This document shows, in pieces, positions 25,995 through 43,330 of a DNA stretch of 64,000 nt. The DNA lies in contig JAEVLN010000015.1 in NCBI GenBank assembly GCA_018350325.1, positions 2,335,931 through 2,399,930 on the forward strand, read 5' to 3'. The position numbers and the translations under genes were made by a program. The notes beneath the pieces were generated by a model that searched no databases, was not told the DNA's origin, and saw nothing but the letters and a program-made list of their open reading frames with translations. The stretch's first letter is position 1. Every line of letters starts with the position of its first letter. Source of the DNA: Globodera rostochiensis. Lineage: Eukaryota; Nematoda; Chromadorea; Rhabditida; Heteroderidae.

Positions 25995-26734
25995 TAATGA
26001 GCGAATGGGAGGAAATTATGTGCACTTGGGGAACAGAACGGAGTGGGGAATGAATGCTTAATGACTGAGTTTTGGGTCAATTAAACGTAGAAGAAAAAGG
26101 CAATTGTATGGAAAGGTGAAACAACGAACGCATTTGTTCTATGAAATAAAAACTGAAAGTGGGCAAGCCCCCCGGGGGGGGGGGGAAGTGTGCGATGGCA
26201 CCAATCAATGGGTGAATTGGAGAATTAAGGACGGACGAATGAATGCTGGCGGCGACAAATTAATCTCCAACTTCCGAGGGGATTTGAAAGCGAAAAGAAA
26301 GAAAGAAGACGGCGGGGAGGGGGCGGCAATTACTAATTAGTGGTAATAAATCAACCAGACAATCATTCAAATTCAAAGAGGATCATTTTCATTATTGGCA
26401 CATTTGGGGGGGGGGGTAACAAAAAGGAAGGGACGGCAAAACAACGATTATGAAACCCCCCAATAAACTTTAAACCTTTTGATCATGAAAGACGGCCGGG
26501 CGAGGCCCTCACATAATTGGGCTCTTTCCCAATGGCCTGGATAGATCGATCGATGCCCGCTTTGTCCCCCGGGGCGTTTCCCGGGCAAAAACACAATTAG
26601 CCGCTCTCTTAGCAGAAAGCGAGGAGCATTGGCTTTGGCCGCCTTTTTATTGAATTTCACGCATGCCTTTCCTTCTTAGGCAGCGCGCAAATTTTACATT
26701 ATTTCGGCAGAGAGTTGGTGGGAAACTGAGCGAA

Positions 26735-27050
26735 TGCCCTCGAGGGCCGATGTCCCCGCCCAAAGTCTCCCACCCCCCCCCCACCTGCCCCGAGGGCCGA
26801 TGTCCCCGCCCAAAGTTCCCCCCCCCCCCCCCCCCCCCACCTGCCCCCGAGGGCCGACGTCCCCGGCCAAAGTCCCCTCCCCCCCACCTGCCCCGAGGGA
26901 CGATGTCCCCGGCCAAAGTCCTCTCCCCCCCCTCCCCGCTCAAAGCCCCCCCCCCACCTCCCCGGGGGGCCGATGCCCGCCCAAAGTTTCCCCCCCCCCC
27001 CCTGCCCGAGGGCGATGTCCCCGCCCAAAGTCCCCCCCCCCCCCTCAACG
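26735..27050. repeat. C-rich minisatellite
   Basis: About six degenerate copies of a roughly 45-55 bp unit of the form CGAGGGCCGATGTCCCCGCC followed by AAAGT and a long C run. It lies between the two alternative globin 5' ends. Long proline or glycine frames here are a by-product of composition. Confidence 0.8.
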
Positions 27051-27108
27051 AGGCAATAACGACAAACACATAGCGGCCCCCACCCCGGGCACAAAGACCA
27101 ACACCAAC

Positions 27109-27368
27109 CTGTACATGAACAGTCCATGCGACTCCTTCCAACGTCGATTCACCGTCTTCCAATAGTTTTTCAGCGTGTAGAAGTCCCTGAAAAGCTTTAC
27201 GTTAAATCAACAACCGGCCAAAAGAATTGCTCACCTGTAACCGTCCATGCCCAGTCGCGAGTCCAACTGCTTGACCGGCTGCGTTCCAAAATCGTCGGTT
27301 GACGCCGCAACAGCCGAAGGCGCGTTGTCGTTGTCGCGTTTTTTAATGGATTTTTTGAAGACGGGCAT
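27109..27368 (-). CDS. Alternative 5' exons of the globin gene
   Basis: Exons 27368-27235 and 27186-27109 encode MPVFKKSIKKRDNDN..., then RDFYTLKNYWKTVNRRWK and SHGLFMY. The second is paralogous to the globin exon at 25994-25798 (FTLKNYWKTVRRND, TMLY). Both end in phase 2 with a donor, so either can join exon 25657-25540 and keep the globin frame. No second copy of the downstream globin exons is visible, which favours an alternative promoter/first exon over a second complete gene. A truncated duplicate gene is the other reading. Confidence 0.65.
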
Positions 27369-27439
27369 TTAACCAAAACAAATATTGGTTTAACTTTAAA
27401 GACACAATTATAGTTGTGAAATGGAAAATTCAAAGGCAC

Positions 27440-27885
27440 ACGACGCAGAGGAATTGGGAATCGGGTGGGGGGGTGGGAGGCGGGTGCCAACCCGGGGATG
27501 GGGAAGGGGGGTGGGTGGGAGACGGAGTGCCAACACGTTTGGGGGAAGGGGGGGGGAGGATGGGAGACGGAGTGCCAACCCGGGCATGGGGAGGGGGGGG
27601 GGGTGGGAGACGGAGTGCCAACACGTTTGGAGGGAGGGGGGGGGGGATGGGAGACGGAGTCCAACCCGGGGATGGGGAGGGGGGGGGGGGTGGGAGACGG
27701 AGTGCCAACAGTTTGGAGGGAGGGGGGGGGGATGGGAGGCGGAGTGCCAACCCGGGGATGGGGAAGGGGGGGTGGGTGGGAGACGGAGTGCCAACACGTT
27801 TGGAGGGAGGGGGGGGGGGAGACGGAGTGCCAACCCGGGGATGGGGAGGGGGGGGGGGAGACAGAGTGCCAACCCGGGGTTTGAT
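27440..27885. repeat. G-rich minisatellite
   Basis: About eight copies of a roughly 55-60 bp unit (GGTGGGAGACGGAGTGCCAA then CCCGGGGATGGGGA or ACACGTTTGGAGGGA, then a G run). Two unit types alternate. It sits just upstream of the distal globin start. The G runs on the + strand could form G-quadruplexes. Confidence 0.85.
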
Positions 27886-27889
27886 TCGA

Positions 27890-29961
27890 TGTTTCCATTC
27901 CAACCCAATACGTCCCTAAGATCCATTTTCAAAATACGCCGCTTTCCCTCCCCCCCCCCCCCCGGCAATCACTCGCCCCGCCCGCCTCCTCCCAATTGGC
28001 CGCGGCCTCGCCTCTCTTCCCGACCATCCCTTTCTGCATAAATAACGAATAATCGGAGGCACTTTGTGTGTTTTGCTAAACAGTGGCGGAAACCGGGAGA
28101 GAGTGGTGTAAAGCGATCACTGTGTCCGGAGGTAACAATTTACGAAAAATCAATTCATGATGAATTTGGAGGCATTTAGGAATGCTTATAATTGTGCCAA
28201 TGGGCCATCGACGGCACCAAACCTTCGCGAGAGCATTTAAATGAGTATTGCTGGATGAATGGGGTGGTGGTTCTTGGAAGAAAGCCCATTAGACAGCGCC
28301 GAAGGAGGCATTACGAGCTGTCGACGTCACGAGAAATGGAAACGGATGGGAGAGGGCGGCGGGAGGGCGGCGGGAGCGGGCGGGGGGGGGGGCGGGCGCG
28401 GCCGCAAGGGGACGGACGGAGAGGAAAGCGACGGACGGCCGACGGATTGATTTTGTCCCTTCGGGCGAGCACCGACAAAACATTGGAAGGTCTAACGGAG
28501 GCAAACACAAAAACAAACAGAACAAACGATCCATCCGCGGAGGCGGCATTCCGAATTACGTTACGACGGACGGGCGATATAACTTTGGCCATTATCCTTG
28601 GTTTAAAAATAGCGCCATCCGTTGATGGCACTAATTGGAGTTTGACGTGTGGGCACAGGAAATGTACCGCCGACCGGATTTGGGACATAATTGCCGCCCG
28701 CCGCAGCCTTTGTGGGTTGGTGGGAGGGGGGGGGGGGTGGGGGGGAGGGGGGGGGGGAGGGGGGGGGGGAGGGGGGGGGGGGGAGGGGGGGAGGGGGCTC
28801 ATATTTCCCAACAATTTATTGTTCTCAAAATGGCACAGAATGTGAGGGGGGGGGGACTCTGTTAATTAATTATTGTCGAAGCAATTCATTGGACGAGCCA
28901 TCGATGAAGTAAGTGTTAAGCATAGTCTAATTTCTGTGGGCAAAGGGATTGAAATGTCGGGGAGGGGGGAGGGGGGGTTGGGAGAGAGTGTTTGGGCGGG
29001 GAGGATTTGCTTCGTCCTTAGGGTTGGTCCACAAAGTTTGGCCCCTTCCGGCGATTTCCATGAAAATGCCATTTCAATCCGTCGGCTTCCCATTCAGCCG
29101 AGCCGAATAATTTGGCTGGGGCCCAATTTGTTTCGCTGGCATTGTCTTTCTTTCCTTTCATTTTTAATTTGCCCATTTCTCTTTCCCCCCCCCCCCCCCC
29201 TCCGTTTTGGCTTAAATCCACGGGATTCCGGAGTTAATGCTGCACAAATATTCCATTTCTCAGTTGTCATCAACCCTTTTTCGCGTGCAAAGTCGCCGCT
29301 GGCGTATTCTTTCTCTCGCAAAATGCCCGCGGGGCCGTCGTCTTCATCCTTCTGCTACCCTCCTCCATTATGCCGCCCTCTCCCCCCCGGGGGGCTCAAC
29401 CGGAAGACCGACCTTCGGCGTTTTCCAATCGACTTCCAATTCTTCCTCGAGATGTGTAATTGCCCGATTTAACCCATCCGTTCTATTCGTTCGTTCTCTC
29501 ATCATTTGAGTCGAGATTCATTGTTACAGTATTTTAGAATCTGATTGTAGGTACGGTAACTTTTGTGCCCGCTGTGTGTGGAGGGAAATGAAGAGGGAAG
29601 AAGAAAAGTGTGATAAACGACGCCACATCTGAACATTGACCGTGACATGAACAATCACAGACAATAAATATGGGACAGACAATGGGGGGGGGGGGAATTG
29701 GGGGGAATGGGGGGGGGGGGGGAATTGGGGGGAATGGGGGGGGGGGGGGAATTGGGGGGAATGGGGGGGGGGGAATTGGGCGGGGGGGGGGGAAGAATGG
29801 AGGATGGGCGGATGCTTTATGGATGACGGGCGGGGGAAGAGACGCCGAGAGTGAGCAAAACGAACGGACGTCGCCGCCCACCGCGCCAACCAAATTCGGA
29901 AACGGATCCCTTCCCACTTAAAACCAATTTCTGAGCCAAAATTGTTCGAATAGCCCATAAA
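27890..29961. other. Long gene-poor spacer with G tracts
   Basis: No supported gene. It contains a dense G-run block (28720-28800), a C run at 29184-29202 and a GGGGGAATT-type minisatellite at 29680-29795. Several long frames on both strands are compositionally biased (Gly, Pro, Arg) and overlap each other. Confidence 0.5.
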
Positions 29962-31035
29962 ATGCGTCTTTTGCTGTCTCTTGTCACCGCTTTCTTTTCT
30001 CTGTTCGCATTGATCCGACGAAACCGCGCCCAAAATGGCATTTGTCCTCTGGGCTTTGTTTGGGGAGGACGTAAGTGAAGTTCCTCCCACTTTTGTCTGT
30101 CCTCAGGGTTTTCTTGGGAGTTTAATTATGCAATTATTGTTACAAAATGTGCATTTGCCAATTTGCTTCACCTCCCCCACAGAATGCGGCTTCGGCGTCG
30201 TCTGTCCTCCGTCTTTGCCGCCTTTTCGCGTATGTAAAGATCGTTTGTTATTTTATAATTGAAGAAATAGGCCCAAAACTTTGCATTGGTCGTGGGTGCC
30301 GCCAATAATGAACAAAAGCAAAAATAATGTCATAATTACCACGGCTTATGGGGGTAGGCATTTCGTCCTGCGAGAGTTGCGCCGGGTCGAGAAAAAGGTC
30401 GGGCCGGGGGCCGAGTTTAGAAGCTTCAGCTCTTGGCTTTTTGGTTGTAAATTCGCCTATTTAAAGGAAGCTGAGATTTATAAGCATTTTTGTCTTGAAT
30501 TGTTCCCTCCTTCTAAAACCCCCCCCCCCCCCCCCCCCCCCCCCCTCCCCCCTCCGTTACAGTGTCTCAGAGGCTCTTGTTGTCGGGACCAGCGCCCGCT
30601 GTTTGCCCGTCTCGGGCCCATTGTGTACCCGCAAGACTTGCTGGGCGGGTTCGGCGGCATCTCTCCGGGGACATTCGGCGGCGGTCTGAACAGTCTCATA
30701 GATCTGACCTGCTTCGACAGCGCCCTCAACTGCTACTTGTTCCAGCCCTACTGCTTTGTACCCATCTACCAATTGTGCATGTTTACGAACTGCAGAAGAA
30801 CGTGTGGATACTGTGGGCTCGGCACTTTTAGCGCTTTTGGTGGATTTGGTATCGTTGGGAACATTATGCCTTGTTGGTAGGCTAAAACTGTTATGGATTG
30901 AGCATTTTAGGTGGACTTGGGGCCGGAAACCTCGGTGGATTTGGCGGTGGACTTCTCGGAGGGACTGGAGGATTAAATGGATTTGGGGAACTCGGGGCAT
31001 TTGGCGCCTCCCCCGTCGCGCCGGGAATTGGTTGA
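29962..31035 (+). CDS. Secreted ShKT-domain protein 1, Gly-rich tail (188 aa)
   Basis: Exons 29962-30070, 30183-30229, 30563-30848 and 30911-31035 join in phase. Signal peptide MRLLLSLVTAFFSLFALI, then a Cys-rich module (CPLGFVWGGQCGFGVVCPP, ending SCC), a linker, an ShKT domain (LTCFDSALNC ... LCMFTNCRRTCGYC) and a Gly/Phe-rich tail (LGGFGGGLLGGTGGLNGFG). The ShKT fold is common in nematode secreted, cuticular and effector proteins; it is a disulphide fold and does not itself imply toxicity. The intron before the third exon has a very long C tract as its polypyrimidine tract. Confidence 0.85.
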
Positions 31036-31240
31036 CGCATAAATAAAGTTACGGATTGATTCACTGTCGACTTTGTGGTCGGCCCCCCCCCTCCGTTATT
31101 CTCGGCTCTTCCCATTCCGATGTCATAGATCCCGAGTCCCAAACGGCAATTGAATAAGCTGCCCAAACAAAAGCATTAATTCGTCACGTTCAACGCTTCG
31201 ACAACGTCAACTTCATCAGCAGAACCATCCCAATGCTCAA

Positions 31241-31744
31241 ATGCCCTCCCCGCACATCTCCGCCAACGCGTTCCCCTCGTCCCTTGTGCTTCTCCTCCTC
31301 TTTGCGCCCTTTCCCCCGACCTCCTCCCAATTCATCTCCTCCTCCTCCTCTGCCCTGCTCGCCCTTTACTGTCGGGACAATTCGCCCCAGTGCCCGTTGT
31401 ACTACAGCTACTGCTTCATCTCCCTCTATAAGTGGTGCATGTCAACGCACTGCCGTCGAACTTGCGGTTACTGTGCGCGACAGTCCCTCTTCCCCAGTGT
31501 ACCGTATGTGCAGCAACAGCCCGGCGTAATGCAACCGATCATCCAGCCAATAATCCAACCCGTCCTACCACTAACGCCCATCGGCAACACTTTCGGCGGC
31601 ACATTTCCAACTATCAACACTTTCCCATCTGCCAATACTTTTCCCGGTGGCACAACATTTACCAATTTTCCTGGGCGGCCAAACATTCCCACAGTGTTCT
31701 CCAACAATTTTCCATTTGGAAATGGCGGCGGATTTGGGAGATGA
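31241..31744 (+). CDS. Secreted ShKT-domain protein 2 (167 aa)
   Basis: Single-exon gene 205 bp downstream of ShKT protein 1. The signal peptide has a Leu-rich core (SLVLLLLFAPFPPTSSQ). The ShKT domain reads YCRDNSPQCPLYYSYC, then WCMSTHCRRTCGYC, with the usual six Cys spacing. The C-terminus is a low-complexity Pro/Ile/Asn/Thr/Phe tail (PIIQPIIQPVLPLTP, then TFPSANTFPGG) without cysteines. It lacks the extra Cys-rich module found in the other three paralogues. It is probably extracellular; the role is unknown. Confidence 0.88.
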   Translation: MPSPHISANAFPSSLVLLLLFAPFPPTSSQFISSSSSALLALYCRDNSPQCPLYYSYCFISLYKWCMSTHCRRTCGYCARQSLFPSVPYVQQQPGVMQPIIQPIIQPVLPLTPIGNTFGGTFPTINTFPSANTFPGGTTFTNFPGRPNIPTVFSNNFPFGNGGGFGR

Positions 31745-31841
31745 AGCAAAAGATCTAATCGTTATTACCAACTTTTATCCGCTCAAAATTTGAAAAAATG
31801 ATTAAAACTGAATTTATCCATTTCATCCGACCTAAATCCGT

Positions 31842-32801
31842 TCAGAAGAGAATCTTTGTGTACCAAGCGGTGTAAGATTCTGTCTGAAAGGACGTTTCGG
31901 CACGCACTTTGAGCGTCATCGAGTGGAAGCCGGACAGTTCAAATTGGCGTTCAAACTGAATAATTTACTGGCATTAGCGGAGAAATAATTACGTTTAACC
32001 GATCAATTTCTTATGCTTTGATCCCCCCCCCCCCCTCCTCCCATTTTCACACCTCTCTAATGTCCAAATTCCCTCCGGCGCCTCCTGCACCAAAAGATCG
32101 TTTCAGAAATCTGCAGATAAAGCTGATTATTCACTGCACTTGGGGGCAATGCTCCATGTAACTAACTGTTTGAGGTGCAAAATTAGCTTTCCGTCCTTGA
32201 AGAAGCCCTGCTCCATCATGGACCAACCTTCGAATTGATCACTTTATTCTAAATCAGTCTCTCTAAGCCGACCGACCTTCGCTGCTCGTTGTCAGATAAG
32301 CCACATGGACCCGGGGGTCGCGTCGGGTGGCATTCTTCACCGGCATGAAGCCATAATCGCCTGACATTGTCCCGAAGTGTTACAGAAATCAATGAAAGTT
32401 TACTTCGAATGACATTTCGACCCGCATCAAAGTAAGTGTGCCTTGGACGTTCCTTTTTTTGGCATTTGTTCCATCCCTAAACCCACGTAATGTTCACGGT
32501 CCGTGCCCCAAACTTCGGAATTGGGTTGATTGCCAAATCGATCAAATTTGGAGCTGGCAATTCCTTGAAGTTTCCGCTACTACGGTCCATCTGCCAAAGG
32601 CCGATGAAGTCCTGGACCGGTCGGAGATCCCAGGGGAGCATGTTCAGGTTGTAGCCTGGGGAATGAACGAACGAACGAACAGTGGGCACCCCCAGGACCC
32701 GGGACTGAATTCTTACGGTCTTCATAACGAGAACGGACAAGTGGAAGTGAGACAAAGAGGATGAGCAACGAGAACAGAAGCTGATGAGAGGTCGAAGTCA
32801 T
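31842..32801 (-). CDS. Secreted nitrobindin/THAP4-like beta-barrel protein
   Basis: Start ATG 32801; exons 32801-32717, 32655-32487, 32441-32404, 32360-32277, 32227 to about 32170, and 31955-31842, with one junction in 32170-31956 unresolved. A signal peptide (LLFSLLILFVSLPLVRS) precedes the nitrobindin/THAP4 C-terminal type fold: PVQDFIGLWQMDRSSGNF, AINPIPKFGARTVNIT, FDAGRNVIRSDYGFMPVKN, DPRVHVAYLTTSSEG and finally SMTLKVRAETSFQTESY with AWYTK. Family members bind haem or small hydrophobic ligands in a 10-strand barrel. A secreted form suggests extracellular ligand binding, which is inferred. It is tail-to-tail with ShKT protein 2. Confidence 0.82.
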
Positions 32802-33533
32802 CCCAATTGCCTGCAAATAGGAGATAAAAAGACCATAAAAATGCAATTAATATGAATGGGTGCACGCTCAATCGATTAGTGATCGGATGGACAAAGTGAT
32901 CAACAACAGATAATAGGCGGTTTGGTTGGAGGAAGAAGTGATTAAGGCGAAGACAATGAATTGGTGGGGGGGGGGGAATAAGAATAATGATGGGATTGAC
33001 CGGTAAATTTGCCCGGTCCTCGTCTTGGCTGTCCCCCCCCCCCCCCTAAAAATCGAAACTTTCCCTGCAAAGTCCAAAAATTGTTTCGCAGACGGAAAGC
33101 GCGCAACCAAATGGGAGAATGGAGAATAACCAATGCATGGCGGGAGGGTGAAAAGGTTATGCTGGAGCTGAAGGAGGAGGAACGGGTTCCACCTTCCCGC
33201 CACACTTATCAACGCAACGACAAAGGGTCCTCCGAACGAGCGAAAAGTGTGGTAAAAGCAACAGAACACTGGGACCGTGAGGTTTTAAGCAATTTTATGC
33301 GCGCGTACATTTCATTCTATTAACCATTTCAATATGAATTTTGATAAAAACCCGTTAAAATGAGGGTACAATGGCCAGTGACAATGAGGAACATAAAACG
33401 GTGAAAAAGATCATTCTAACAAAAAGTTCAAATTGAATATTGCCCGGCCCCGGGGAATGTAATATGTTATGCATATTCAAGTGATGTACACAGTACAATG
33501 ATTAGTATCCTTCAGAACTACACCCAAAGCGGA
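32802..33533. other. Intergenic
   Basis: No gene supported. It contains C and G runs (32967-32978, 33033-33047) and AT-rich stretches. Confidence 0.4.
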
Positions 33534-34694
33534 TCAATCCGGACTCAAGTGCTGCTTCCACTTCTGACTCTCCTGCCAAGGGTCCGTCTCCTTGACACGT
33601 TCCAGCATGTTCTTAACACATTTACAGTAAAAACTCAGGCAGTTTCAATCGATCTGTACCTTTACGTTGTATTCGCCGGGTCCTTCAGCTTTTTCCAATT
33701 CATCCCAGGTTACCGGTGCTGCAACGGGCGCTCCCTTTTGATTTCGAGTCGAATAAGGCGCAATTGCAGTTGCCCCGCGGCTGTTTCGGAGATAATCAAT
33801 GAAAATACGGTCCTTTCTGTAAATAAAAATGCAAAACATTTGGCTCTACAATTACCGTTTTGCTTTTGCCGATTGCGAAATGTATTTGTCCGGGTCGTCC
33901 TCTTCCATTTGCTTGGCAATCTCCTGAGTGAACTTGTGAACTAAATCCCAATTCGCCTTCGGAATCTTAACAAAGTTTGTAGTCAATTTATATGTTAATG
34001 CCATCGCACCAATGGCGCCACCACATGCACTCCCTTCCCGCCAGTTAACAACGGCAAAGAGTGCAGTCCATTCGATTGAAGCCGTTCTTTGAGTTCAACC
34101 GCCGCACTCTTCACGTGATCAAAGGTGACGCCTTCGCCCGGGTCGATGTCCATCACAATTCGGTCCGGATGTTCCAAGTCACTGAAACGAGAACCCCAAA
34201 TGTGGAATTCGAGCACGCCCATTTGGACACCGGCAATCAAAGAGGCAAGCCCAGTGACACACGCTTAAGTAGAAATAAAACATACAAATTATTGTAAATC
34301 ATTGATAAAAACACCGTAAGAAGACTTTTGCCCAGTGGTTCTTGTTTCCTTCACATTAACAAGTTTCATCGCGTCAGGAAAATTGCGACAGTGCTTCTCG
34401 TACCAACTTTTGCCCTTTCGACCTTCAGTCCGCCCGTCAGGGCATCGGACGACGCTGAGCAGGTGGTCATTCACCTGAATTCTAAAACCTCTGACCGATC
34501 GTATCAACAAAACATTCGAATAAAAATCGATGACATTTGTTTTAAAAACCCACTAAAGGAAGCATCCGATTCGCGACGTTCTGATAATAAACAGCCAAGT
34601 CTTTCTTAGTCAACTCCAACTCCGGGTAAAGCATTTTGTGTAGATTTGAAAATGCCACGCCCTCAATAATATCGCGCTTCTCGGGCGTATCCAT
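33534..34694 (-). CDS. LigD-type polymerase (archaeo-eukaryotic primase fold), bacterial-like
   Basis: Six exons (34694-34554, 34474-34315, 34263-34010, 33965-33856, 33816-33660, 33611-33534) join in phase to 299 aa, the size of a bacterial LigD polymerase domain. The protein shows FSNLHKMLYPELELTKKDL, LLSVVRCPDG, VQMGVLEFHIWGSR, the metal-binding DxD in VMDIDPGEG (Asp139, Asp141), LLTGGKGVHVVAPL, SQSAKAKR, FIDYLRNSRGATAIAPYSTR (third Asp at 229) and a C-terminal DPWQES. In bacteria this domain, with Ku and ligase/phosphoesterase domains, fills gaps and adds ribonucleotides at double-strand breaks. No ligase or phosphoesterase domain is attached. All introns are short GT-AG. Flanking genes are ordinary animal genes, so bacterial contamination is unlikely; transfer from a bacterium is inferred. 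Confidence 0.93.
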
Positions 34695-35465
34695 TGAATT
34701 GAAAACACAACGGTGTTAATAAAGCTTAATTAAACAATGAAATCATTTTAAATCTTTAAGCGAGCAATAAATACCTATGTAGGTGTATATACAACGGACT
34801 TCAAGTTTGGAAACTTCGGACTGAATGAAAAAAAATGAAGGAAATAAACAAGGCAAGCAAATAACAATAAACAGCGATACTTCAGCTGATGCTAGCGGAG
34901 TGTTGGTCTTTAATCCCTTCAAATGATTGAATTTTTTTATTAATGTTTTGCGACGACAAAAATTGATTGTAAAATTGAGAACTCTGGCGCAAAAAAATAC
35001 GTAAAACACGGGTATTTATTTACCAGGGTTCCGATATCTGTTGCTTTAGCAGCTTTTGTGGTTTTTTGAAAGTTTAATGATACTTTTTTTGGATATTTTG
35101 TGGTTTTTTTGGAAAATTAACAAAAAAATTTAAAAAATGTTTATATTTGAATTTTGTCATAATGTTATGTAATAAAAAGTGATTTTCGACAAATTGTTCA
35201 ACAAAAATGCAGTAAAATTGAATTTTTGTTTTACAAATTAGGGTTTTTGGGAAATGCTCAAATTAATTGTTTGTAGCCAGAAACTTGCCAATTCGCTACT
35301 CCCCCCCCCCCCCCCCTCCCATTCCTAAAAAGCTTCAATAAATTACCGTATTTTTAAATTTTTGGTTGCAAATCTCAATAAAATTACTCAAAAATTCAAA
35401 TTTAGCGAGACGATATTTGACGATTCAAATCATTTTTAGATTAATTGAATCATCGCTTTACAATA
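34695..35465. promoter_or_regulatory. Divergent spacer between LigD-like and clathrin light chain genes
   Basis: AT-rich, with a C17 run near 35301. The flanking genes read outwards, so both promoters should lie here. About 35030-35240 looks like a repeat remnant (TTTTGTGGTTTTTT repeated). Confidence 0.35.
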
Positions 35466-36939
35466 ATGTCAACTTCAAATGACCCAGTGTCGGAATTTCT
35501 AGCCCGTGAACAAACTGCTCTTGCCGAGCTTGGCGACGACTTTGTGGCTGCGCCTCTGCCGCAGCCCGACAATGGTTTGGTTGCTTTGTCTTTTTTCTTT
35601 CTTATACTCATCCAAGACACCCGCCGACGGACGTTGTTTAAACGCCAGAATTTTTATTTTGTCAACCAAAACCTGGACTTAGAATAACATCGCCTTCGGC
35701 GAGTTGTCCTTTTTCGTCTAACGCTTAGTTAAAGACCCCCTCAAATGCTTAAAACATGGCGTGCTGTGAAGAATAGGCAAAAACACTACACGGACCAACC
35801 GATTTGCGGCACATAATGCCACAAATGTCCACTTGCCATAACACCTCCTCTTTCTTTACTTCTAATCACTTTTATTTATTAAGAAGGGATTGTGCTGACT
35901 AACGGCGGCTCGGACTTTGGCTCCGATGTAAATTTAAATGCTTTTGACGCGAACGATGTTCACTCTCCCGTCAACGGAATAAACGGTCCGTTTTTTTCTA
36001 AAAAAATAGATTCGATTGGTGCTGTTGTAAAGAATTTAATTCGAATTGATTGAAAAGCACTAATCAAAATTCCTATTTTATTTATGCATTTCTTATTTTT
36101 GGACTAATTTCTCAAATTTAAGGCTCTCTTCGCGGAAGTCCCGCATTTTCCCACTCTCACAGCCAACAGCTCGAGAAAGAGCCCGAAAAAATTCGCAAAT
36201 GGCGTGAACAGCAAAAGGAAATAATTGCGGAGAAAGGCATTTTTGTTTTGGGGACGCACTCGTGGAACTGAATTTTGTGTTATTTTTTCTATCGTTTTTT
36301 AAAACAAATTTGGATTGTTTTTGGAGAAGTTCGGCGAAAATAGAGTATTGTTCTTTTCTTTTGGTTGCGTCCCTGGTTAATTTATTTTGGAAATAACGTC
36401 AACTTCACTTGAAGACAAAATTGAGGAGCAGAAGAAGGAGGATTTGCGTCAGCAAGCCAAAAAAGAGTTGGAACAATTTTATGCTCAACGCAAGGAGGAG
36501 TTGGAGCAGCGGAAGAAACTCAATCGGTCGGTTGGCTTTACCGTCGTTGGCCTTAGCGAGTCAAAAATTATGGCGACGTCCGCAAAAATTAATCTTTAAA
36601 TAAATTTGAGCATTTATAAGTGTCGATTTCCTTCCCCTTTTGTTTGTTAATAATTTAGTTAATTTCAGTGAACGAGAAATCGCTTTGAAGGAGGACCAAT
36701 CTTTGAACAATCAGCAAGAGTCCGCTGCCGTCGTTTGGGAGAGAGTGGCGCGGATGATCGAAAGCGGTGGCGGGACGGGGGCGGCCATTTGCGGCACTGG
36801 CAAAGGTACGAAAGGCGCGCAAAGTGTCGCATCGGGCAAAGACACGTCGCGGATGAAGCAGCTGATTGTGTCTTACGCGAGGGGCGACCAAATGGGCGAC
36901 AAAAGTCCGTCTCCGGACAAAGAGGCGGCGGACGCGTGA
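35466..36939 (+). CDS. Clathrin light chain (234 aa)
   Basis: Coat protein that binds the clathrin heavy chain hub. Exons 35466-35574, 35887-35985, 36123-36236, 36415-36526 and 36669-36939 join in phase to 235 codons. The N-terminus is acidic and disordered (DPVSEFLAREQTALAELGDD). The SHSQQLEKEPEKIRKWREQQ segment starts the long heavy-chain-binding helix, continued by KKEDLRQQAKKELEQFYAQ. The C-terminus (SAAVVWERVARMIE, SRMKQLIVSYA) matches the conserved light-chain ending. The intron after 36236 begins with GC (AAAG|GCATTT); a GT start at the nearby alternative would insert extra residues. Confidence 0.95.
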
Positions 36940-37842: not shown

Positions 37843-40692
37843 ATGATTGTCGCCCATTATTTGTCCATTCTGGTTGTGGCCGTACTTTTGGCACATCCTT
37901 CAAACGGAGAATTTCGTTCATATGACGGGTAAGGGGTGAGGGGGGGGGGTATCCGACTTAAACCGGGGCCTTCCGTCCACCTCCAACTCGATGCCCCCTC
38001 CCCTCCATGGTATCCGACTCAAACCGGTACCTTCCGCCCACCTCCAACTCGATGCCCCCTCCCCTCCATGGTATCCGACTCAAACCGGGACCTTCCGCCC
38101 ACCTCCAACTCGATGCCCCCTCCCCTCCATGGTATCCGACTCAAACCGGGACCTTCCGCCCACCTCCAACTCGATGCCCTCTCCCCTCCATGGTATCCGA
38201 CTCAAACCGGTACCTTCCGCCCACCTCCAACTCGATGCCCTCTCCCCTCCATGGTATCCGACTCAAACCGGTACCTTCCGCCCACCTCCAACTCGATGCC
38301 CCCTCCCCTCCATGGTATCCGACTCAAACCGGGACCTTCCGCCCACCTCCAACTCGATGCCCCCTCCCCTCCATGGTATCCGACTCAAACCGGGACCTTC
38401 CGCCCACCTCCAACTCGATGCCCCCTCCCCTCCATGGTATCCGACTCAAACCGGGACCTTCCGCCCACCTCCAACTCGATGCCCCCTCCCCTCCATGGTA
38501 TCTGACTCAAACCGGGACCTTCCGCCCACCTCCAACTCGATGCCCCCTCCCCTCCATGGTATCTGACTCAAACCGGGACCTTCCGCCCACCTCCAACTCG
38601 ATGCCCCTTACCAGATATCGTCTCATCTTCGCATTGCCTTCCAACCCTTCGCATTTGTCGGCGCTTCGTAATTTCTCCAAACATTATGACGCCTCCGGAC
38701 ACGGGGGCGTTCAGTTTTGGAGACTTCGTCCTCAGTTGGGTGTGCCCTGCGAAATTTTAGCGGGTCCCGAAAGCAGGGAAGAGGTGAAGCAGTACCTGAA
38801 GCACAACCGCATTCCGCATTACACGGCTGTCAGAGACTTTGGAAAGTGAGGGATTGGGAGGGGGAGTGGGCTTGTTTGTTACTGACTATGATGCTTGCGT
38901 GTGATGAAGACAGATAATGAGGGAGAATGAGGCATGGAGAAGTCGGGACGAGCCGATGGAGCAGTACCAGCAGCTGGACGAGTTCGACTTGGGACGTTTT
39001 CACAGCTTTGATTCGGTCAGACGATCGCTTATAATTTTATAGCCCGAGGTTTTCAAAATGTTAATTTTGTTGAACAAAAGGCTATTTCATTAAACGCCCA
39101 AAGTGTTCAGATCCTCCGTTACCTCCAAATGGTGGCACATTCACATCCGGATTTTGCTCGTTTTGGCTCCATCGGACGAACTTTCGAGGGCCTTCAATTG
39201 CCCATTCTGACGGTCAATCCTTTCGACTTGCCTCGCCTCCCTTTCAAATCCCCCCCCCCCCCCGCTCTTTTAGCTCGGATATTCCTCCCGAAACGATTCA
39301 TCTGCTAAAAAGCCCTCTCTGCTGGTTGATGCGGGTATTCACGCCCGGGAATGGATCGCTCCTGCCGTGGCACTTCACTTTGTGAATGCGGTCAGTTCGG
39401 GTGGACTTGAAGTTGATCCCTCCCACCCGTCAACTTCAAGCTGATCAACGATCCCCAATTCCATTCTTTACTCCATCACATCGATGTGCACGTAATTCCG
39501 GTGCTGAACCCCGATGGATACGTTTACTCGAGGGACAAAGACCGTGGGTCCAAAGCAGAGATGGCCAAAATTGCGGATTTCAGAGTTTTGAATAAAATTC
39601 TGTTTTGTGCCCACAAGCATTTGGCCTGCCCTGCCCGAAATGCTTAAAGTGACGGGCACTGAATTCCGTTCCTTTAAGGGCTGTGGAGGGGCACTCGGTC
39701 GGGTCCACGGAAGAGCGATGCGCAGAAATGTCCGGGACGGGAGGAGGACGACGCGTTTTGCGTCGGAGCGGACCCCAACCGGAACTTCCCTTACCATTGG
39801 GTGAGTCTCGCTTTAGCGCATTTAACAGTTCTTCCCTCGACAGGACGAATCGGGGACCAGCCAATGTCCGTGCAGGTGATCGAACGGTGCTATTGGCTTA
39901 TTCCTTCCCCCATTCAGTCAGGTGTTCAGTGGCGATCAGCCGCTCTCCGAGACGGAGTGTGCCGATCTCGCCAAATTCCTGCAAGACAACCGCGGCTCCC
40001 TAAAAGCGTATCTGACGCTGCACTCCTACGGCAACCTCATCATCCACACGTGGAACTTCAAGCCAAAAACGTATCCGGACAATGTGAAGGAATTGGTGGG
40101 TGAGAAATGTTGGCATTTTGATGCTTTTGAGCATTTATAATAAACGGACCAGAATATTTGAGCGATCGTTGGCAAAAAGGATGGCAGAAGCGATAGTCAA
40201 AGCGGGCGGGACGCAATACGAAGTTGGCACTGCTCCAGACATTCTCTGTAAGTGCGGCTAAATTAGGAAGTTGCACTGAGAACAGAACACTTTCGGTGCA
40301 GTCCGAATTTATTGGTTTTGTGTGGTCGTTGGGGCGAACGATCGCTGAGATTCAAATATCCCTGGCGGCGCAAAGCGCCCAATCGTTTTGAAATTTCCTA
40401 AAGATTCGGCGGCCGGCGGAAGTGACGATTATGCGCAGAGTTTGGGCATCAAATACGTGTACACAATGGAATTGAGTTCCGGATATTTTGGGGGAAAATT
40501 CCGCGGATTTTTGTTTCCGGAGGAGCAAATAAACGACGAAGCGGCCAAAGTGGGACGGGCGGGCGGGCATTTGGGCATTTGCCTGCTTTTTCTTGCAGAT
40601 TCTTCCCGGCATCCGAATACTCGCCGAAAAAGTGCGGGACGAGGCGCGCGACGGTCGGCGGAGGGTCGGAGGAAATTCCAATTAAATTTTTG
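37843..40692 (+). CDS. Secreted M14A zinc carboxypeptidase with propeptide
   Basis: Signal peptide (SILVVAVLLAHPSNG) in exon 37843-37928, then propeptide exons 38615-38845 and 38910-39015 (YRLIFALPSNPSHLSALRNF to GKQIMRENE), and catalytic exons from 39111. Zinc ligands are visible in the HxxE of LLVDAGIHAREWIAPAVA and in the TLHSYG histidine. Substrate-binding NPDGYVYSRDKDR and ADPNRNFPYHW and the catalytic Glu in YTMELSSGYFGG are intact. The domain layout is that of pancreatic-type procarboxypeptidases: secreted, activated by removal of the propeptide, cleaving C-terminal residues. The first intron is almost entirely a 61-bp tandem array. Confidence 0.92.
37950..38612. repeat. 61-bp intronic tandem array (about 11 copies)
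   Basis: The unit starts TATCCGACTCAAACCGG and ends TCCCCTCCATGG. Copies are nearly identical (G/T, C/T variants). It fills the first carboxypeptidase intron from 20 bp after the donor to the acceptor at 38614. As 61 is not a multiple of three and the unit has no stop codon in the sense strand, long frames appear in all three sense frames. Confidence 0.95.
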
Positions 40693-43330
40693 AGCCTTTT
40701 TCGTTTTTTTGATTTGAGACGAATGGATTTATAAATAATATTCCGTTACAAATGTTCATCCAAAGACAGCCATTTATTTTTTCTTTTTCCAAAATTTTTA
40801 CTAGAAAATGGGGGGGGCAAAATGGACGGACTCTTCCCCGGAGGGTGTGAAATTGAGCGGAAATTGAAGTCGAGGGCTGGAGAATGGGATGGGTTTACAC
40901 TTTGATCGGGAGTCTCGGTTTCCCTCCGAAAAACACTTCAAAAGCCAAAAGCCCGAGGGGAAATTTGATGCCACCCACCGTTTGTTGTTAGACCATTCCC
41001 TAAAGGGGCCAATCCAGTGCCAAAGTGCCAACACTCACACGCCCTCTATTAAGGTAATTTGGCATTAAAATGTTCATATTTTAACTTCACTTTCGCTGTC
41101 CCGAGTAAAACTTTTTCTTGGCTCCCCCCCCCCCCCCCCCCAAATACAAATTTCGCTTTTTAATCCATTTTTCTTTCCCCTGGTCTCTTACCCATTTTGG
41201 CATTTCTCACATCGTTTCCATTTCGCCGTCCTTTCCATTCGCACTTAGCTTAATTCAATGAATTTTGGCCATTTGCTTCCGCGCTTTTGAGGCCGCCATC
41301 TAAGCCCTAAAATAAATTAAAAATTGCAAATTGAATTGGACTCAACACAAAGTGCCGAGCTCATTGATGCCATTGGTTTCCCACGCAATTTTCCGTTTTT
41401 CCTTTGCCGTTAATTCGAAGGGCCCCCCCCCCTCCCTCTTTTTGTGCCTGCCACCGCCCAATGTTTGACGCAATTTCGCCGCCAAAAAACCGCTTTTGAG
41501 GTTTATTTTGTTGTGCCGTCGGTATCAATTGCCGACGTCAAAAGGCGTCTGAAGGGAAAGTGCCGTCGATTGGATGGCTTTCCAATTGAGGCGGCCGATG
41601 TTTTCAATAAATTTGGTCTTTTTTTTCACGCCGCCAAAAGTTTGCCCTTTAAGACCGGTCAATTTGCTGCTTTTTGTGACTTTTCGAAGCTTTGTGTTTT
41701 GTAGATTTTTTGAAATGAATGAAAAATAAAATAAAATGCTTAACTTCGGCTTTTATCAAAAATTACCGACTTTTTTTCGATCGGTAAAATACCGGTTACC
41801 GTCGATACCGACCCATTTTTAGCTTCCAACCGTAAATTACCTAAAAATTCATATTCCGTACATTAAATTGGACACAGGCAAAGCTTAAATGAATTGTCGG
41901 TGGATGCTGCACAAAAGTTGCAGCAAAGTCTCTCGTGCGCGGCTATTCCCCCCCCCCCCCCCCTCCCGGGGCTATCCCTCCCCTCCCGAGGCTCCCGGGG
42001 CTATCCCTCCCCCGGGGCTATTCCCCCCCGGGCCTATCCCCCCCCCCCCCCGAGGCTATCCCCCCCCCGAGGCTATCCCCCCCCCCCCCCCCCCCGGGGC
42101 TCCCGGGGCTATCCCTCCCCCGGGGCTATTCCCCCCCCCCCCAGGGCTATCCCCCCCCCCCCCCCAGGGCTATCCCCCCCCCCCCGGGGCTTCCGGGGCT
42201 ATCCCCCCCGGGCTATTCTCTCCTCCCCCCTCCCGTCCCGCCTCCCTCCGCCCCATTAGTTGGCATATTCGCGGATTATCCCCCATATGAGAATGATAAG
42301 CCATATTAATGCATTCCTGACCCTTTTCATGCCTTCAAATTTTTCCGTCTCCCAGCGCGCACATAAAAATGCATTGGCTTGGACATCATTCTTTTATCGA
42401 AAAAATTAATTAACGTTAATTAATTCTCATCGTGACAAATGATCTTGTAAATTTGCAAAGATTCGAGGCCAAAGGTCGGCGGCAGAATTTTCCCGAGGCA
42501 TAATAAATTTATTTTATTTTATTCTTTTGATCAAATGCTTCTGATCAGTGCCGGTTGATCGAAGAAGTCTAAGCTTGGCTTAGCTTAGAGCACTGTCCAA
42601 ACATTTCCGTCAATTGAAGCCTTTCCTTTCTGCGGGGGAATGAGGGGATTCCGGCATGGACCCCCCCCCCCCCCCCTCTAATCGGAAGTTGGGGGGAGGG
42701 AGTGTATTTTAGTCCACCCCTCCTCTGCCATCCGTCCCCACCTTTTTCTCAATGCCAATGCCGACTTGGCAATTAATTGAATTCGCAAAATGCGTGCCGA
42801 ATCTCCTCATTTTCATATTTAAGCCCCCAGCAGCATGGCGGCGTTCTTTAGTTTCATTCAATCCGGCTTAATGTTAAAATAGCACAACTTAAACATCGCC
42901 CTCCCCTCCAGCGATACCGTCACTTTGCTTTCGTCCAAAACACTCCGCCCGATCGAATCATTCCATTAATTCATTTTGCCAAATTGTTTGTCTCCCACAG
43001 CGCCCAACGTCGGCTCTTTTTCCCAGACAATTCCAAGCCCAAATTCCCCCCCCCCCGTCCCGTTTATGCAAAAACCGCACAACAACCACCCAATCCCCCC
43101 CCCCCCCCCCATCTCCCGCAATATCCGTTCCCGCCACTCTCGCGCAATAATCTGTCTGTCCGGCTTTATATTTAAGTACATGTCCCAACAATGTTGACGA
43201 ATTGTCGTTTAATCCCCTTCGGCCCATTCTTTGCTTCAGTTTCAGCTCATTTCACTCCGTCGCAGAACAAAGTGCTTTCTTTCATCTGGCTCAACCAACA
43301 TTCGGCGGCACTTTCATTATCCTCCAAAAT
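40693..43330. other. Gene-poor spacer with C-rich repeat
   Basis: No gene supported. It contains C runs at 41127-41142 and 42661-42675 and a C-rich minisatellite at 41948-42240 made of GGGGCTATCCC-type units. Proline-rich frames there are compositional. Confidence 0.5.
41948..42240. repeat. C-rich minisatellite
   Basis: Degenerate units of the form GGGGCTATTCCCCCC or GAGGCTATCCCCCC, about 18-35 bp each, repeated more than ten times in a gene-free stretch. Confidence 0.8.

Follow-up and report, generated by a model that had tools for sequence, protein, structure and literature searches.

The closest described relatives of the gene analysed here are the polymerase domains (PolDom) of bacterial LigD, in particular those of the Phyllobacteriaceae type, with which the nematode protein has in common the full domain, the catalytic and 5'-phosphate residues and the fold. 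In the free-standing form of the bacterial domain, for which Mesorhizobium sp. J18 is the closest named bacterium found, the N-terminal start position matches as well. The nematode gene differs from its bacterial counterparts in lying in an animal chromosome, in having five introns, in changes at 8 of 65 near-invariant positions and, according to profile searches of the genome, in being accompanied neither by a PE domain nor by a bacterial-type Ku or ligase partner. The non-homologous end joining (NHEJ) polymerase of Methanocella paludicola (5dmu) is a single-domain protein and the best PDB match by both sequence and fold, but it is archaeal and belongs to an NHEJ set with PE and ligase, as described for that system in PMC4797286. 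Mycobacterial Prim-PolC (5op0, 6sa0, 6sa1), a relative from excision repair, is also encoded apart from its ligase and shares the fold (query TM 0.85-0.86). The enzymes of the archaeo-eukaryotic primase superfamily that animals possess, i.e., the small primase subunit and PrimPol, are related to the nematode protein at the superfamily level, with weak similarity through the general primase model PF01896 and a poor fold match (query TM 0.28-0.46 among the 50 matches listed); PrimPol is reported to be absent from Caenorhabditis elegans (PMC4538821).

Domestication of foreign DNA-repair enzymes has been described in bdelloid rotifers (Fpg, AlkD, UVDE and LigK; PMC6264785), which are a different animal lineage, and none of the four enzymes named in that account is a polymerase. 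For Globodera rostochiensis, 519 candidates for horizontal gene transfer (HGT) have been reported, and 70 of the 91 best supported are closest to bacteria; Table 2 of that paper (PMC4901422) assigns the transfers published for plant-parasitic nematodes to the induction of feeding sites, the processing of nutrients, detoxification, manipulation of defence and plant cell wall breakdown, or leaves them without a known function. Genes of bacterial origin in a cyst nematode are therefore of a known kind, and a LigD polymerase in an animal is a new setting. A literature search by title and start of abstract found no report of LigD in a nematode or another animal. The gene is absent from the main-text Table 2 of the G. 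rostochiensis genome paper (PMC4901422), and the word LigD does not occur in the main texts of the G. rostochiensis, Heterodera schachtii and Globodera pallida genome papers, the supplements of which may list the gene.

Gene structure and chromosomal setting

The window, i.e., the whole stretch of 64,000 nucleotides under analysis (G000:C7:2335931-2399930), lies in a G. rostochiensis assembly of 92.6 Mb in 80 contigs, on a contig of 2,531,924 bases. Both of the two LigD-Pol matches in the genome fall in the gene described in Table 1, and no further copies were found in the 92.6 Mb. Its introns have an AT content of 65-80%, compared with 50% in the exons, and retention of any single intron would lead to an early stop at residue 50, 108, 189, 222 or 278. 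The acceptors of introns 2, 3 and 5 (three of the five) read AAG rather than CAG.

Table 1. Features of the LigD-Pol gene and its identified neighbours (positions in the window; length, splice sites and phase are given for introns).
Feature	Position	Strand	Remarks
LigD-Pol gene	33534..34694	-	ATG at 34694, stop ends at 33534; six exons, five GT-AG introns, 299 codons plus stop
exon 1	34554..34694	-	residues 1-47; start codon at 34694; Asn17, Lys20, Lys30 of the 5'-phosphate pocket
intron 1	34475..34553	-	79 nt, GT-AG, phase 0
exon 2	34315..34474	-	Arg57/Pro59 wedge, Trp71/Tyr72
intron 2	34264..34314	-	51 nt, GT-AG, phase 1
exon 3	34010..34263	-	His121, metal-binding Asp139/Asp141, TGGKG with Lys177, His180
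intron 3	33966..34009	-	44 nt, GT-AG, phase 0
exon 4	33856..33965	-	
intron 4	33817..33855	-	39 nt, GT-AG, phase 2
exon 5	33660..33816	-	third metal ligand Asp229, Thr238, Arg246; end at 33666 with the alternative donor
intron 5	33612..33659	-	48 nt, GT-AG, phase 0
exon 6	33534..33611	-	stop codon included
ShK ORF	30263-30880	+	left flank; just over the Pfam cut-off
clathrin light chain gene	35468-36596	+	right-hand neighbour; Pfam matches at 36122-36268 and 36381-36596
M14 zinc carboxypeptidase	37962-40693	+	with activation-peptide (propeptide) domain

At the first four junctions, no gap interrupts the alignment with the database proteins P0001 (G. pallida) and P0002 (H. schachtii). At the fifth, two residues are absent from the G. 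pallida protein, which equals the outcome of the upstream donor in the window: intron 5 has two usable donors 6 nt apart, and use of the upstream one (GTAAAG; intron 33612-33665) would give 297 aa instead of 299. The shorter form is thus that of the G. pallida protein and the longer one that of the H. schachtii protein. The original prediction had given the coordinates and five short GT-AG introns with closing phases exactly (5/5 GT-AG), and its length of 299 aa holds for the exon model of Table 1, with 297 aa also possible through the second donor of intron 5.

To the right, a clathrin light chain gene is transcribed away from the LigD-Pol gene, and its first exon presumably lies near 35468; an M14 zinc carboxypeptidase gene lies beyond it. 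On the left flank, the Pfam scan matched 1 of 12 ORFs, as ShK. The earlier statement that ordinary nematode genes stand on both sides is borne out on the right, by the clathrin and M14 genes, and extends on the left to the ShK match, the other 11 of the 12 ORFs giving no Pfam match. The stretch 26000-32000 that holds the ShK ORF is GC-rich (up to 58%) with long ORFs on both strands, and homopolymer runs flank the LigD-Pol gene (11 G at 32966-32976, 14 C at 33033-33046 and 16 C at 35301-35316).

Domain identity, fold and functional residues

The spliced product matches the Pfam LigD_Prim-Pol model (PF21686) over its whole length (1-254 of 254; 279.4 bits against a cut-off of 27.4; E 3.7e-83) and the NCBIfam ligD_pol model (TIGR02778) with 270.6 bits against a cut-off of 214.7. 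It scores under the cut-offs of the full-length LigD models, as expected for a single domain, and reaches 21.3 bits with the general primase model PF01896, under the cut-off of 26.8. The protein ends after the Pol domain, with no ligase or PE domain. A sequence search of the PDB returned five distinct matching sequences, i.e., the Methanocella NHEJ polymerase (179 bits), the Pseudomonas aeruginosa LigD polymerase domain (157 bits), two constructs of mycobacterial Prim-PolC (133 bits) and the Mycobacterium tuberculosis LigD PolDom (92.5 bits). Prim-PolC, which is absent from the sequences of our tree, accordingly stands under the Methanocella and P. aeruginosa enzymes and over the M. tuberculosis one, and its score falls between the LigD polymerases of different bacteria.

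The structure was modelled with AlphaFold2 on the G. pallida orthologue, which is 95% identical to the window protein, from 38 sequences (pLDDT 91.3, pTM 0.90). The predicted structure has the LigD-Pol fold, with TM 0.88 against 5dmu and 0.86 against 2fao. When the model was submitted to Foldseek, ranks 1-16 were NHEJ-Pol, LigD-Pol or Prim-PolC chains (query TM 0.76-0.88), the Prim-PolC chains (ranks 3-7) preceding every M. tuberculosis LigD-Pol chain (ranks 8-16); ranks 17-21 were CRISPR-associated Prim-Pol and human primase (query TM 0.36-0.41), the human primase standing at rank 21 with 0.40. Identity as an animal primase or PrimPol was rejected, given the PF01896 score under the cut-off and the weak fold matches.

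Alignment to the M. tuberculosis PolDom mapped 16 functional positions. Thirteen are identical (N17, K20, K30, R57, P59, H121, D139, D141, K177, H180, D229, T238 and R246) and three are conservative, i.e., F63W (W71), F64Y (Y72) and S172T (T174), the last being a Thr that is present in 10 of 10 aligned sequences. The roles of Lys175 and Asp227 of the M. tuberculosis PolDom are those that we presume; most of the residue roles are taken from PMC8656161 and PMC4797286. N17, K20 and K30 correspond to the 5'-phosphate pocket (Asn13, Lys16 and Lys26 in M. tuberculosis; PMC8656161), described as one feature that separates these repair polymerases from related enzymes (PMC4538821). Mostly on the basis of PMC8656161 and PMC4797286, R57 and P59 would form the strand wedge, H121 and T238 would contact the 2'-OH of the incoming ribose, K177, H180 and R246 would belong to motif II and the triphosphate site, and D139, D141 and D229 would be the metal ligands.

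The predicted whole LigD polymerase domain is confirmed by the full-length Pfam match and the NCBIfam score above the cut-off, the catalytic signatures named beforehand (His121, Asp139, Asp141, TGGKG and Asp229) are all as stated, and the best matches are LigD polymerases and not a metazoan primase family. We place the protein in the LigD polymerase-domain family, here in a new setting, and outside bacterial Ku-LigD end joining, the other components of which were sought in the genome and not found; its domain identity is well supported.

Relatives, origin and selection

A search of 5.8 billion proteins gave 4097 candidates, 2885 of them within E 0.001. Among the best 120 of these 2885, no named eukaryote appears other than G. 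pallida (95% identity) and H. schachtii (76%), whose proteins carry the automatic names 'ATP-dependent DNA ligase' (UniProt) and niasHS_010205, respectively. Next in the same 120 matches come P0003 (299 aa, 60% identity) and, in fifth place after P0004, P0005, a fragment of 238 aa with 60% identity over 81% of the query; named bacteria reach 44-50% and environmental proteins up to 51%. A search started from P0003 places both H. schachtii (397 bits) and G. pallida (386 bits) ahead of P0004 (379 bits), the best environmental protein. In a GTDB scan, the best 80 of at least 586 loci are Alphaproteobacteria by title plus one Gemmatimonas MAG, and Mesorhizobium sp. J18 tops the loci listed with 52% identity in a free-standing ORF of ~300 aa. 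A viral carrier was rejected, as the viral contigs searched yielded 17 pattern matches and no relatives. The gene had been called not a standard animal protein, which agrees with the list of matches, though two orthologues were already present in UniProt/NCBI; its presence in related nematodes is established by these orthologues.

For the tree, 68 sequences were chosen from 222, and the root was placed at the midpoint. The three cyst nematode proteins form one clade (100/99) and, together with P0003 and P0005, a five-sequence clade (100/100) on a stem of 0.76 changes per column. A branch with support of 100/99 places these five and 31 sequences of the Phyllobacteriaceae type on one side and the 32 others on the other; the named members of the 31 are mostly Phyllobacteriaceae. 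A tree constrained to keep the 31 as a group of their own, apart from the nematodes, is worse by 4.5 log units (AU p 0.40), a value that does not separate a position of the five-sequence clade inside the 31 from one beside them. Among 13 of the aligned sequences, five are free-standing ORFs (301-321 aa) and eight are long ORFs (847-1007 aa, stop to stop), with a Met near the matching place in 7 of the 8 long ones, so that the donor gene may have been either free-standing or the end of a full LigD.

The FYMINK/GARP value of the window protein is 1.01, those of the nematode proteins are 0.95-1.04, and those of P0003 and P0005 are 0.99 and 1.06, while the 217 bacterial and environmental sequences stay at or below 0.80. 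P0003 and P0005 are probably eukaryotic because they share this amino-acid composition with the nematode proteins. Both are also nearer to the nematode proteins than any bacterium is, by identity and by path in the tree, and possibly come from further eukaryotes with the gene.

The donor would have been an alphaproteobacterium of or near the Phyllobacteriaceae, apparently one living in soil, and the five introns would have been gained after the transfer, a reading that is well supported by the sequence comparisons. A single transfer, at least before the Globodera-Heterodera split, is the simplest account. The phylogeny that had been proposed for locating the donor thus leads to the Phyllobacteriaceae-type side (100/99) and not to a donor genus.

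Selection was gauged by a column-conservation test, with conservation taken from the 217 bacterial and environmental sequences. The window protein and that of H. schachtii differ in 70 of 285 columns, distributed 4/12/21/33 over the conservation quartiles, starting with the most conserved, and none of 10,000 permutations was as extreme. The two Globodera proteins have 12 differences (2/1/5/4 in the same order, p 0.054), a comparison that does not decide the matter by itself. At positions at least 95% conserved in the 217 sequences, the window protein is changed in 8 of 65, whereas those sequences themselves have a median of 0 such changes and never more than 6; three of the eight (residues 70, 71 and 73) lie at the DNA-splaying aromatics. 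These near-invariant changes fit a relaxed or changed function as well as they fit a long branch. We read the whole as purifying selection acting on a protein whose role is no longer quite the one it had in bacteria. The original prediction of an old bacterial transfer that gained introns and was kept under selection is supported by the tree, the orthologues, the identified neighbours and the constraint test.

Host repair machinery and possible function

Ku is represented in the genome by a single match, at a locus with separate exons giving the Ku_N and Ku domains. One ligase locus has exons with the N-terminal and catalytic domains and a BRCT domain downstream, and we read it as LIG4-like; a second is LIG1-like, and both carry DNA_ligase_A_N domains. 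We take Ku_N and DNA_ligase_A_N to be as in animal or eukaryotic Ku70/80 and LIG1/LIG4. The LIG4-like locus (G000:C7:2214925-2215555, L090) shares its contig with the LigD-Pol gene, at a distance of ~154 kb, which is probably a coincidence. The LigD PE domain (LigD_N) had no match in the genome, and a bacterial-type Ku was not found in a genome search of limited sensitivity, the sole Ku match being the Ku_N plus Ku locus. This fits the earlier proposal that the polymerase is independent of bacterial Ku and ligase. A separate primase-like locus is present on contig C56, and Y-family polymerases gave two matches. A mitochondrial polymerase of family A is to be expected. The four family-X polymerase domains gave no matches in this one genome when it was searched exon by exon, a negative that is weak because the same search also gave no match to DNA_pol_A, although C. 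elegans has the family-A polymerase POLQ-1 (PMC7744777). In C. elegans, sequence analysis is reported to have revealed no POLB or other family-X member, and POLQ is used instead of Pol beta (PMC7744777).

We favour, with fair though limited confidence, a transferred and selected LigD-type polymerase that would fill short gaps together with host Ku/LIG4 end joining or single-strand gap repair. The free-standing archaeo-eukaryotic primase-polymerase would dock on the 5'-phosphate at a short gap or broken end and insert one to a few nucleotides, probably ribonucleotides by way of His121 and Thr238, with metal ions at Asp139, Asp141 and Asp229. It would leave a nick for a host ligase, most likely as a step of end joining by eukaryotic Ku and LIG4 or of single-strand gap repair, and may take the place of gap-filling polymerases of family X, which appear to be missing in nematodes. 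Our first choice of pathway is end joining with Ku and LIG4, and the gap filling of excision repair is its main rival; the two have the chemistry in common and differ in the partner. The partnership with Ku and LIG4 is a guess, because the protein lacks a ligase domain, a PE domain and any part known to bind Ku, and the single Ku gene found counts against it, as a Ku heterodimer needs two genes. More specifically, and only tentatively, cyst nematodes could have used a bacterial NHEJ polymerase, inserting ribonucleotides beside the eukaryotic Ku and LIG4, to restore the gap filling that was missing from their end joining or base excision.

It is rather unlikely, yet deserves attention, that the same transferred gene serves mainly in excision repair, and less in the joining of double-strand breaks, and fills gaps of 1-3 nt after the removal of damaged bases, as Prim-PolC does together with LigC in mycobacteria, i.e., the role of polymerase beta that is missing in nematodes. 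Mycobacterial Prim-PolC, which is reported to be encoded apart from a ligase, to bind 5'-phosphorylated gaps of 1-3 nt and to interact with components of base excision repair (PMC5663958), surpasses the M. tuberculosis LigD polymerase by fold (ranks 3-7) and by sequence (133 versus 92.5 bits); the 5'-phosphate pocket is intact, and C. elegans is reported to lack Pol beta and to use POLQ in its place (PMC7744777). However, the first two places in the PDB sequence search are taken by NHEJ polymerases (that of Methanocella, 179 bits, and P. aeruginosa LigD, 157 bits), and the neighbours in the tree include full-length LigD genes of Phyllobacteriaceae. We regard it as improbable that the retained gene no longer polymerises DNA in repair, being relaxed, re-purposed (e.g., for binding of nucleic acids or nucleotides) or on its way to loss. 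The long stem (0.76 changes per column) would be explained in this way, as would the 8 changes among the 65 near-invariant positions, a number that none of the 217 other sequences reaches, but the residues mapped for metal, NTP and 5'-phosphate are retained (with Thr for S172), no stop interrupts the frame across the six exons, the changes avoid conserved columns and the gene persists in two genera.

Two further explanations were rejected. Use as an effector is reported for about 8.5% of the genes that G. rostochiensis gained by transfer (PMC4901422), and delivery of this protein into the plant, as for some transferred genes of cyst nematodes, is nevertheless very improbable: its N-terminus is not signal-peptide-like, the most hydrophobic 9-mer of the first 70 residues averaging 1.1 (Kyte-Doolittle) and beginning at residue 40, and the N-termini of both orthologues lie no more than a few residues away from its own. 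A bacterial source of the DNA, through contamination or misassembly of a contig, has nothing in its favour except that the sequence family is bacterial, and can practically be dismissed. The five GT-AG introns are AT-rich relative to the exons, the contig of 2.53 Mb carries the clathrin light chain, M14 carboxypeptidase and ShK neighbours, and the FYMINK/GARP value of 1.01 compares with a maximum of 0.80 in the 217 bacterial and environmental sequences; the orthologues in G. pallida and H. schachtii likewise mean that the gene is not a contaminant.

The favoured reading, that of a transferred gap-filling polymerase, implies that a nematode may be repairing its DNA with an enzyme of bacterial origin, as judged from the sequence. 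If true, horizontal transfer would have reached chromosome maintenance in an animal, through a core DNA-repair polymerase from bacteria. The five-sequence clade suggests that such use has lasted since before the Heterodera-Globodera split, and it may extend to other eukaryotes (P0003 and P0005). This raises the testable question of whether a bacterial NHEJ polymerase can function within the end joining or base excision of a eukaryote and make up for absent family-X polymerases, and predicts a mutational signature in cyst nematode genomes in which short insertions would mark the repaired breaks.
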